DNA of 64,000 bases, from assembly GCF_016937515.1 (NCBI RefSeq), contig NZ_JAFHKM010000002.1, positions 496,001 through 560,000 on the forward strand. The letters run 5' to 3'. A program made the position numbers and the translations under genes. Every line of letters begins with the position of its first letter. Position 1 is the first letter of the stretch. This document shows positions 1,132 to 3,100 of this stretch, in pieces. The DNA is from Cohnella algarum. GTDB taxonomy: Bacteria > Bacillota > Bacilli > Paenibacillales > Paenibacillaceae. The notes under the pieces were generated by a model, which had not been told where the DNA came from, made no database searches, and saw only the letters and a program-made list of their open reading frames with translations.

Positions 1132-1160
1132 CGGGATAATGGCGTTACGCCATTATCCCG
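1132..1160. terminator. 13-bp perfect hairpin between convergent genes
   Basis: CGGGATAATGGCG (1132-1144) and its exact complement (1148-1160) flank a TTA loop. The hairpin lies between the ends of the ABC-F gene and the LytTR gene, so it may end transcription from either side. There is no clear T-run on either side, so intrinsic termination is plausible but not certain. Confidence 0.5.
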
Positions 1161-1187: not shown

Positions 1188-1574
1188 TCACCCATTATCA
1201 TGAAGAAGTTCGCGAAAGGCACTAGGTTTAGCTGCATTCTCCTCCGCCAGATGCTCGACCTTTTTCAAGTTCGCTTCCGATACCGTGAAAAAAAGGCTTT
1301 CCCTGTTCCACGGATAGTCGAAGTACACTTTGCGGTCCTTCGGATCGAATGCTTTCACCTGATTCAGATTGACCAGATTCGTACGGTCCAGCCGTTCGAA
1401 GCCGAAGTCGCTCAACAAAAGGTGAAGCTCGTCCATCCGGGTCGGGTAGTAATAGACGTCATCCTTCGTATAAAACTCCGGACCTTTGGCCGTAGGGCGA
1501 ACTGCAACAAGATTCTCTACGCTGACGGCACATGGTTTCCCCTTGCGATCAAGCAAAAAAATCTGTTGCGACAT
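1188..1574 (-). CDS. Stand-alone LytTR-domain DNA-binding regulator
   Basis: This 128-residue protein is essentially one LytTR DNA-binding domain, with the typical segment ERLDRTNLVNLNQVKAF in the middle. There is no receiver domain in front of it, unlike AgrA, which is about twice as long. ATG at 1574 follows AAAGGAG at a 7-base spacing. It is the last gene of an operon with a membrane protein, agrB and agrD, 21 bases after agrD. LytTR proteins without receivers are known in LytTR regulatory systems (HdrR and BrsR in Streptococcus), where a co-encoded membrane protein restrains them. The same logic is inferred here. Targets are unknown. Confidence 0.88.
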   Translation of the reverse strand: MSQQIFLLDRKGKPCAVSVENLVAVRPTAKGPEFYTKDDVYYYPTRMDELHLLLSDFGFERLDRTNLVNLNQVKAFDPKDRKVYFDYPWNRESLFFTVSEANLKKVEHLAEENAAKPSAFRELLHDNG

Positions 1575-1595
1575 TCGGCCACTCCTTTTCGGCTA

Positions 1596-1718
1596 TTACC
1601 GTTTCAACTCGTCGGGAACCTCCGGCCGATGGAACAAAAATTGGCACGCAGTCGACGCGAAAGCTACGGCGACAAGCGCCAATACGCGGGAAACGACAGT
1701 TACGGCATTACGCTTCAT
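1596..1718 (-). CDS. agrD: AgrD-like cyclic lactone autoinducer peptide precursor
   Basis: This 40-residue ORF has ATG at 1718 after AGGAGG. It overlaps the 3' end of agrB by 11 bases and stops at 1596. The layout is that of AgrD: a basic amphipathic leader (MKRNAVTVVSRVLALVAVAF), a central cysteine in STACQFLF, and an acidic, proline-containing tail HRPEVPDELKR. In known AgrD peptides AgrB cleaves the tail and links the cysteine to the last ring residue as a thiolactone. The predicted ring here is C-Q-F-L-F (five residues), with a short exocyclic arm. The ring boundary is inferred from spacing and tail similarity. The gene was too short for standard ORF listing, but its position between agrB and the LytTR gene leaves little doubt. 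Confidence 0.88.
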   Translation of the reverse strand: MKRNAVTVVSRVLALVAVAFASTACQFLFHRPEVPDELKR

Positions 1719-2253
1719 TTTTCAATCTCCTCCTATTTATTCGGATGGTTGAAGCCGCCTGAATAAAATGAGCCACTGCAACAGTGGAACTGAGCCAAAA
1801 GAAATTAAGCGATACGATGAAGACCGATGCCAGCTTGAGCAGTGGAAAATATCGGTCCGGGATGCGCGTGTGGCCTTTCAGATTGGAAGGCGCGAAAAGG
1901 AGAAGCAGGACGGCACTGACGGCAATGACCGCTTGCGTCCACGTATCCGTCAACGGAATATGCGGGACGGCGACGACGCAGACGACGGACAGAACCGAGC
2001 ACTGCAGCGCGGTGCGCAGATGCGCCCCGCCGGAAACGAATTTGAGGACCATGAACGCGGCCAATCCAAGCATGGTTTGGCCGAATTTTCCGGTTATCGC
2101 TCCCGCAAGGCCAATAACCAATATCGTAAAAAAGAGATTAAGCAAAATGACGAGAGAGTATTTCATCACTTCGACGCTGGCCGTTCCCTCCGGCTCCGCG
2201 TTCTTGAGACGCTGGGCGAGCCGCAAAGCCATCGATTCAATCATCGTCTTCAC
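1708..2253 (-). CDS. agrB: AgrB-like autoinducer-processing membrane protease
   Basis: This 181-residue polytopic membrane protein is the size expected for AgrB. The catalytic pair is visible as GGAHLRTALQC, with His and Cys seven residues apart as in Staphylococcus AgrB (H77/C84). AgrB cleaves the AgrD tail and makes the thiolactone ring at the membrane. GTG at 2253 overlaps the upstream gene by 17 bases; an ATG three codons in (2244) is an alternative start with better spacing from AAGGA. The 3' end overlaps agrD, so the two are probably translationally coupled. Confidence 0.9.
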   Translation of the reverse strand: MKTMIESMALRLAQRLKNAEPEGTASVEVMKYSLVILLNLFFTILVIGLAGAITGKFGQTMLGLAAFMVLKFVSGGAHLRTALQCSVLSVVCVVAVPHIPLTDTWTQAVIAVSAVLLLLFAPSNLKGHTRIPDRYFPLLKLASVFIVSLNFFWLSSTVAVAHFIQAASTIRINRRRLKNEA

Positions 2254-2902
2254 GATCCTTTTTTACCGAGATGACAATCAAAGCGATTAACGCCAGGAAG
2301 AACAAGATCGAAATCAGCAAATAGGGCGGATTGGACGCTGCGATATAAAGCATGTTCGCCGCCACGACCAAAATGATCGAAAGCAGCAGGAATATCAAAA
2401 AGGGAACGTTTTTGCGAACGAAAATCCGGCTTCGCGAAAACCGGCTCGCTTCCCCGATAAAGCTGAAGCCGCCGTTTTGAAGCTTGGTCGCCATTCCGCA
2501 CAATGCCATTATCGCGGCGGTGGCGGCCTGGATCGCAAAGGCTTCGAACGTGTACGATTCGATTTTCAGCTGGGCTCCGTTAACATGCGATATAACGCCG
2601 ACGATCATCCACTGAACGATGGAGTTGACGACATAGCCGGTAATGACCATAACCGCCGAATTAAACACGTGCAATCCCAAAAAGATCGTAATGAACGCGA
2701 TATGAACGACCACGTGAACGAGCGGCGAATACACCTGCAAAGATTCCGCTTGCAACGAGTTGGAGGCAAAGCTTAGCACGATCGCATACAGAACGAATTT
2801 GTATATGTTCTCCCGAACGTTAAACCGGAAGAGGACTAGAATCAAGTAGATAAATGCGATGTACTCCAGGGAAGAGAAAAAGATGAAGCCGACAAATTTC
2901 AT
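2237..2902 (-). CDS. Polytopic membrane protein, AgrC-sensor-like but kinase-less
   Basis: This 221-residue protein has about six or seven hydrophobic segments (roughly residues 1-25, 35-50, 58-80, 83-105, 119-138, 165-187, 192-212) and then stops after a short charged tail VKKDREDDD. It occupies the place of the AgrC sensor in agr operons and resembles an AgrC transmembrane input domain, but no HisKA or HATPase domain follows, and the next gene begins at once. ATG at 2902 follows CGGAGG. I infer that it senses the AgrD-derived peptide and acts on the LytTR protein directly, or needs a kinase encoded elsewhere. No motif proves either. Confidence 0.7.
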   Translation of the reverse strand: MKFVGFIFFSSLEYIAFIYLILVLFRFNVRENIYKFVLYAIVLSFASNSLQAESLQVYSPLVHVVVHIAFITIFLGLHVFNSAVMVITGYVVNSIVQWMIVGVISHVNGAQLKIESYTFEAFAIQAATAAIMALCGMATKLQNGGFSFIGEASRFSRSRIFVRKNVPFLIFLLLSIILVVAANMLYIAASNPPYLLISILFFLALIALIVISVKKDREDDD

Positions 2903-3100
2903 TCCCTTTGGTGCCTCCGGTAAGTATAGGTTAATAGCCCTACTTCTATTCTATCAAATTTCCAAAATTAATCATCCCTTTTTTATAGGCAAACCGCATA
3001 AATCGCCGATTTTATTTTTTTCTTCACGCGAAGGCGACATGCGTATTAAAATGTTGAGGGACGACGCAAAGAAAAAAGACGAAAAAAGGAGCCGCGCAGC

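Follow-up and report, generated by a model that had tools for sequence, protein, structure and literature searches.

An agr-type peptide operon lacking kinase and receiver domains in Cohnella algarum and its relatives

The four-gene unit and its products

The window analyzed here, a stretch of 64,000 nucleotides from the genome of Cohnella algarum (assembly GCF_016937515.1, contig NZ_JAFHKM010000002.1, positions 496,001 to 560,000 of the forward strand), carries on its minus strand a unit of four open reading frames. They encode, in this order, a seven-helix membrane protein (hereafter M), AgrB, AgrD and a LytTR protein (hereafter T), which is the gene set and order that the initial annotation of this DNA had given (Table 1). 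The genes are packed tightly, with overlaps of 17 bases between M and agrB and of 11 bases between agrB and agrD, and a gap of 21 bases between agrD and T; the neighbors are a divergent gene for peptide deformylase and a convergent gene for an ABC-F-type ATPase. When the window is compared with the C. laeviribosi locus (one pair, our own Nei-Gojobori script), dN/dS is 0.11 for M, 0.14 for agrB, 0.12 for agrD and 0.21 for T, the last value being limited to 85 codons because the C. laeviribosi T has an altered C-terminal frame.

Table 1. Features of the operon in the window
Feature	Position	Strand	Basis
M: 221 aa, seven-helix membrane protein, similar to an AgrC-type sensor half without kinase, likely peptide receptor	2237..2902	-	ORF; no Pfam family; AlphaFold2 model; profile similarity
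agrB: 181 aa, membrane peptidase predicted to process and cyclize AgrD	1708..2253	-	PF04647, E 3e-17; HxxxxxxC motif
agrD: 40-aa peptide precursor	1596..1718	-	TIGR04223, E 7e-11; alignment of 27 Cohnella orthologous loci
Predicted ring codons, Cys-Gln-Phe-Leu-Phe (thiolactone), AgrD residues 25-29; STA and HRPEVP flanks conserved	1632..1646	-	Cohnella AgrD alignment
T: receiver-less LytTR DNA-binding protein of 128 aa	1188..1574	-	PF04397, E 5e-7, residues 17-105, no other domain
Extended -10 element TGATAGAAT of the probable operon promoter, which has no TTGACA in the -35 region	2948..2956	-	TGnTAnAAT in Cohnella upstream regions
Terminator-like hairpin 3' of T, 13 pairs followed by TTTGTGTGTT	1132..1160	-	Pattern scan

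The two components expected to make the peptide are intact, as had been claimed. AgrB exceeds the PF04647 cut-off and has the catalytic pair, His78 and Cys85. Across the loci examined, 99 of 101 B frames contain the HxxxxxxC motif, and the other two are the two parts of a single broken agrB. AgrD exceeds the cut-off of TIGR04223 and, as judged from this match and from the 27 orthologous loci, has the Cys/Ser core and the charged C-terminal tail of agr precursors. In the Cohnella alignment, the first residue of the ring is Cys in 17 of 27 sequences and Ser in the other 10, and the five-residue ring is hypervariable, with 22 forms among the 27 loci, between conserved flanks; the size and the end of the ring in the window AgrD are those that we assume by analogy with AgrD of Staphylococcus aureus. 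As to T, Pfam yields the LytTR domain and nothing else, and, since 128 residues leave no room for a receiver, T differs from an AgrA-type regulator in the way the initial annotation described.

For M itself, no match was found in Pfam or NCBIfam, single weak matches being seen in other members of the M group. The AlphaFold2 model (16 sequences, pLDDT 85, pTM 0.82) has seven helices, and, because the last of them spans residues 194-220 of 221, M has no kinase domain and hence neither the histidine nor the ATPase of an AgrC kinase. The view that this AgrC-like protein stops after its membrane part therefore holds, and homologs of M share the same end point in the alignment. The possibility that M is a membrane protein of known fold or family was pursued further and dropped: a Foldseek search of the model against the PDB gave no match at E 1e-3 (best E 0.8), and the M profile gave none among the PDB sequences at E 1. 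Nor was a match to M found in phages or plasmids. The charge pattern, with seven Lys/Arg residues inside and one outside, fits an N-out/C-in orientation, and the most conserved parts include Ser10, Glu13, the FRF motif after helix 1 and GGFS in the loop between helices 5 and 6. Comparison of the outer and inner halves of M as a sign of a peptide-binding face gave a null result, the outer half being neither more variable (p 0.30) nor a better tracker of the peptide ring (0.45 vs 0.52; see below for this type of comparison).

The extended -10 motif TGnTAnAAT stands at the same distance in 24 of the 27 Cohnella upstream regions, whereas a control segment taken farther upstream has it in none of the 27. 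LytTR-type 9-bp direct repeats upstream of the operon number 2 in 27 at one mismatch, against 2.1 expected by shuffling, a setting at which a divergent box could be missed; among the published repeats of LytTR regulatory systems (LRS), mismatches range from a single base to several (PMC6193735). A box found in a subset of Cohnella, GATGCGTTTTC-N9-TGATAnAAT, has an exact match once per genome in 5 of the 11 genomes searched, and no regulon can be read from it, since these matches lie only at the M promoter. The hairpin downstream of T is weak evidence by itself because the region contains 4 sites of this type, with 3.2 expected by shuffling.

In the genome from which the window derives, agrB occurs four times, always next to an M gene. 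Two of the three further sets have a LytTR gene, agrB being split in one of them, and in the third no LytTR gene was found. The set with the split gene (L034:3117-3655, at about 5.0556 Mb of contig C2) has agrB distributed over two frames, open M and T frames, and an AgrD-like peptide with Ser at the ring position. The set in which no LytTR gene was found (L032:3922-5257) consists of M, agrB and an agrD whose product has neither Cys nor Ser at the ring position; this peptide, like those of L205/L206, has Ala there (A-K-V-x-x before a G-x-P tail). The same genome contains a lone T paralog (L069:1432-1875, C2, about 94.8 kb) that is identical to T at 70 of 124 aligned residues and adjoins a DDE_3 transposase gene.

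Occurrence among relatives and forms with degenerate kinases

At E 1e-3, M is found in 31 of 37 Cohnella genomes. Strong matches, with E below 1e-24, give 27 Cohnella loci, and all 27 have the order M-agrB-agrD-T, more than chance would give; L001 and L003 are one locus from two sources, and L001 was left out of the ring and frame counts and of the correlations. Within the family Paenibacillaceae, a profile of 25 M proteins matches 181 of 295 genomes and 16 of 19 genera. Since the order is kept in Cohnella and M is widespread in the family, local truncation and assembly error are ruled out as explanations; in particular, a full AgrC in this position, which for the initial annotation would have pointed to local truncation, was not seen in any of the 40 wider family loci described below. 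Across the class, the M profile matches 29 of 299 genomes, namely 13 from the same family, 10 from family f22, 4 from f11 and one each from f19 and f39, the f39 match being taken as spurious.

A wider sample comprised 40 M loci of 6.2-9.0 kb each from 37 genomes, 39 of them outside Cohnella, drawn mostly from the top of the match list and hence non-random. The complete M-B-D-T set is present in 24 of these loci, M-B-T with no agrD found in 2, M-D-T without agrB in 3, M-T alone in 3, M-B-D with no T in 7 and M alone in one, and a receiver-less LytTR protein adjoins M in 32 of the 40. None of the 40 has a kinase fused to M, none has a receiver by a profile made from five receivers, and a GHKL profile matches in a single locus, where the protein is divergent and 1051 residues long. 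Three loci (L123, L127 and L128) are bare two-gene units, M first and T second, with neither agrB nor agrD, and they indicate that M and T can stand as a pair. Three others (L103, L107 and L112) hold M, agrD and T, with no agrB found in 8.7-8.8 kb, so that processing of the precursor would depend on an AgrB encoded at another site; L205:4381-5788 has two tandem M genes before agrB, agrD and T.

As to the origin of M, the distant family f11 is informative, being the only one in which an AgrC-type protein was seen in the position of M. Here proteins of 406-450 residues are encoded directly before agrB (five proteins: L199-L202 and L226), and it is their N-terminal half that the M profile recognizes, with E values from 3e-11 to 4e-6 in all five and, in a profile-profile comparison with that half, an hhalign probability of 98% (E 7e-14). 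For the second halves, Pfam makes no kinase call in the four that were checked; a profile of 20 intact GHKL kinases does find all five (E 3e-14 to 3e-7), and alignments with intact AgrC-type kinases extend along the length of the proteins. Each of the five has another residue in place of the phosphorylatable histidine, lacks the Asn of the N box, and shows a missing or unrecognizable ATP-lid and G-box region. The same GHKL profile finds nothing better than E 9.6 in 28 M sequences. Thus these degenerate AgrC-type proteins are akin to M in the sensor half and in their place directly before agrB, and unlike M in having kept a kinase-like tail from which the catalytic residues have been lost; their operons further differ from that of the window in that a receiver-LytTR protein of the AgrA type ends four of the five. 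In one f11 genome, the gene immediately ahead of agrB codes for an intact AgrC-type kinase (L229/L243; agrB PF04647, E 2e-27), and two intact AgrC-type proteins are matched weakly by the M profile (E 6e-5 and 3e-3). By these profile comparisons, M is similar to the sensor portion of AgrC-type proteins.

Other combinations are found as well. The f22 locus L203 has a kinase-less M of 214 residues together with a receiver-LytTR protein; in 6 of the 11 f22/f19 loci there is a LytTR protein only, and in 4 no adjacent LytTR was found. In Cohnella, the locus L030 encodes a single protein in which two LytTR domains are joined, with no receiver. Since the forms seen include a degenerate kinase with receiver-LytTR, M with receiver-LytTR and M with LytTR only, comparison of these loci suggests a stepwise loss, in which kinase activity would have gone first, then the kinase domain, and then the receiver. 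A relation of M to those GHKL kinases of the family that match PF14501 best (L140-L169) was considered and discarded: there is no M match in those 30 loci, and the N-terminal halves of 29 of these kinases do not match M (hhalign 9%). Kinases with a strong PF14501 match are widespread in the family, 84 of 118 genomes having one at E 1e-12; within 1.5 kb flanks, a LytTR-like frame adjoins most of the 30, and no AgrB or M was found.

Co-variation with the peptide ring and the alternatives

Which protein follows the peptide can be judged from pairwise distances correlated across the 27 Cohnella loci, with Mantel p values. The ring correlates with M (r 0.51, p 2e-4, n=27; 0.79 for n=12) and with AgrB (0.39 and 0.70, respectively), and not with T (-0.04 and -0.14). 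With one locus for each of the 22 distinct rings, the values are 0.42 for M, 0.25 for AgrB and -0.07 for T; conditioned on AgrB, the ring-M correlation is 0.36 (p 4e-4), and conditioned on M, the ring-AgrB correlation is -0.08. M and AgrB co-vary strongly (r 0.84), M and T weakly (r 0.20). Because of this M-AgrB correlation, and because the ring tracks M and AgrB and not T, the genes for M, AgrB and AgrD appear to travel as a cassette with T apart, though agrD lies nearer to T than to M. As in agr, then, the sensor co-varies with the peptide; and since the divergence of the ring is tracked by M and AgrB and neither by T nor by the AgrC-like kinase described below, M is likely to be the peptide receptor, although co-inheritance of adjacent genes by linkage alone can yield such a correlation.

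The computation supports the gene content of the unit, its conservation, the co-variation of M, AgrB and the peptide core, the similarity of M to AgrC sensors, and the lack of a kinase and a receiver in the operon. On this basis we infer the following scheme. AgrB would cut and cyclize AgrD to a five-residue thiolactone (presumably a lactone in the relatives with Ser); the exported ring would bind M, an AgrC-type membrane sensor without kinase; and peptide-bound M would alter the activity of T through direct contact on the inner side of the membrane, T being either held back and then released, or activated. T would then act on DNA, possibly including its own promoter, so that control of T would involve no phosphorylation. 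Indeed, with no kinase in the sensor and no phospho-acceptor in T, the signal, if T answers the peptide, has to pass by protein contact or through a third protein, and of these we consider contact between M and T the likelier. Taken as a whole, the account of an agr-type unit that shed its phosphorelay, with peptide-bound M controlling T by direct contact, seems to us somewhat better than an even proposition. Against this account speak the M-B-D units in which no LytTR gene was found, that is, the 7 of 40 wider loci, the 4 of 11 f22/f19 loci and L032. The lack of enriched direct repeats, the null comparison of the two halves of M, the weak M-T correlation, the divergent kinase and the locus L204 (for both, see below) count on the same side. 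The initial annotation had proposed just such an agr peptide acting on a receiver-less LytTR without a kinase; the gene set that it described recurs across the family, the present comparisons did not refute the proposal, the mechanism is the part that we infer, and the units without T and the divergent kinase weigh on the other side.

This kinase is the strongest result against the view of the initial annotation. In 15 of the 27 Cohnella loci, M has an AgrC-like gene as its divergent neighbor (about 449 codons; the one copy checked has SPOB_a and HATPase_c domains), while in another of the 27, L015, the sequence ends 385 bases upstream of M and allows no judgment. A match at E 1e-20 is found in 31 of 37 genomes of the genus, including that of the window, where a homolog lies 3.36 Mb away along the contig. 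One could therefore envisage this kinase as the real receptor, M being an accessory and T a side product. Yet the ring is tracked neither by its sensor half (r -0.06) nor by its kinase half (-0.08) in the 12 loci whose sequenced stretch contains the kinase undamaged, the very loci on which M reaches 0.79, and the kinase instead follows T (r 0.73). Two of the 15 neighboring copies are damaged (broken in L009, split in L017). At E below 1e-60, no full copy is found in 6 of the 27 M-bearing genomes, one of these six being 78% complete, and a copy is found in 6 of the 10 genomes without strong M, one of these six being partly matched (at most 45 candidates were scored per genome); co-occurrence with M is not significant (Fisher p 0.41). 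The kinase is not matched by the M profile, and in the wider loci GHKL matches are confined to the single one noted above. No response regulator adjoins it directly in the 10 loci inspected; L240 has one of the AraC type at a distance of about 3.5 kb. In L041:1817-5989, three tandem AgrC-like kinase genes diverge from M-B-D-T, and no receiver was found in 13 kb. The notion of a separate kinase and receiver pair is thus realized in its kinase half in 15 of 27 loci and, in the loci inspected, lacks the directly adjacent regulator; elsewhere, one f22 locus, L204, has a GHKL kinase and a receiver-LytTR protein downstream of T. All in all, we regard the kinase as a very improbable receptor.

The role of M itself could be of another kind: M might be a partner of AgrB in maturation, export or self-protection, the peptide serving another purpose and T answering something else. 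The M-AgrB correlation and the M-B-D units without T among the wider loci agree with this; M stands beside T without AgrB in 6 of the 40 loci, however (3 with agrD, 3 with neither), M resembles sensor halves that are fused to (degenerate) histidine kinases, and the ring tracks M better than AgrB, so we consider such a role unlikely, although it is the alternative we take most seriously. A reading of M as the peptide sensor with an output other than T, in which M would heterodimerize with or signal to another membrane protein and T would be a constitutive autoregulator, draws on the low M-T correlation as compared with M-AgrB and, again, on the units without T. It strikes us as a more doubtful proposal still, given that T is kept in 27 of 27 Cohnella loci and LytTR in 32 of 40 wider ones, in three of which it is the sole partner of M, and that the agr regulator is likewise conserved outside the variable cassette. 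Finally, the split agrB of L034 in the window genome and the altered C-terminal frame of the C. laeviribosi T could be seen as signs of a decaying agr remnant; with dN/dS of 0.11-0.21, a uniform end of M in the alignment and M matches in 16 of 19 genera of the family, decay is hardly credible.

Relation to agr and to LytTR regulatory systems

Returning to the account in which M passes the peptide signal directly to T, we find it worth stating in its general form, which we hold to be about evenly poised between true and false: that there is a widespread, phosphorylation-free type of peptide quorum sensing, in which agr lost kinase activity, kinase domain and receiver one after the other, in this order, a seven-helix receptor gates a bare LytTR protein directly, as a peptide-gated counterpart of the LRS, and exchangeable receptor-peptidase-peptide cassettes plug into a conserved regulator. 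If the operon works without a kinase, mere contact could relay ligand binding at the membrane to a DNA-binding protein. The extant intermediates, with a degenerate kinase, with a receiver and no kinase, and with both gone, make the order of loss testable, and the M-B-D-T family, which offers a defined, synthesizable ligand and a specificity series of 22 rings, does the same for the question of direct gating.

The agr system is the textbook case of peptide signaling via a histidine kinase, and in S. aureus a variable B-D-sensor block is set against a conserved regulator. The window operon shares with agrBDCA the His/Cys pair of AgrB, the five-residue Cys/Ser core of AgrD, an AgrC-type sensor and a LytTR regulator, as well as the contrast between a hypervariable B-D-sensor block and a conserved regulator; it differs in that its sensor lacks the kinase, its regulator lacks the receiver, and the gene order is sensor-B-D-regulator. 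Among the best matches of a search of the open-access literature that started from titles and abstracts, with most subscription papers and bioRxiv outside its range, no paper on agr operons without kinase and receiver was found. Genome papers on Cohnella, Brevibacillus and Paenibacillus list 'cyclic lactone autoinducer' clusters and make no mention of LytTR in the portions available (PMC10308117, PMC9867215, PMC10938842).

The other point of comparison is the LRS (HdrRM and BrsRM), in which, as far as the accessible part of the account goes, a membrane protein inhibits a receiver-less LytTR protein, autoactivation proceeds via direct repeats upstream of the -35 element, and no peptide ligand is named (PMC6193735). 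The likeness extends to a membrane protein without an enzymatic domain, a receiver-less LytTR regulator (here T) and an extended -10 promoter (PMC6193735, same part). In that text, LRS were filtered for a membrane protein with DUF3021 or DUF2154, with one exception, and the membrane gene lies downstream of the regulator (PMC6193735); neither domain was found at E 0.1 in 25 M proteins, M comes first and T last in the window operon, M being first in the three M-T pairs, too, and the search at one mismatch showed no enrichment of direct repeats. Moreover, the window operon adds a peptide precursor and its processing enzyme to what is described for LRS in the part consulted (PMC6193735). The proposal that the operon merges agr with HdrRM/BrsRM thus holds for the pairing of a membrane protein with a receiver-less LytTR regulator, fails on the DUF3021/DUF2154 domains and on gene order, and is best kept as an analogy. 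By the criteria given in the part of PMC6193735 at hand, the window operon is not an LRS; relative to classic agr, its kinase-less, receiver-less unit would be a new variant of signaling.
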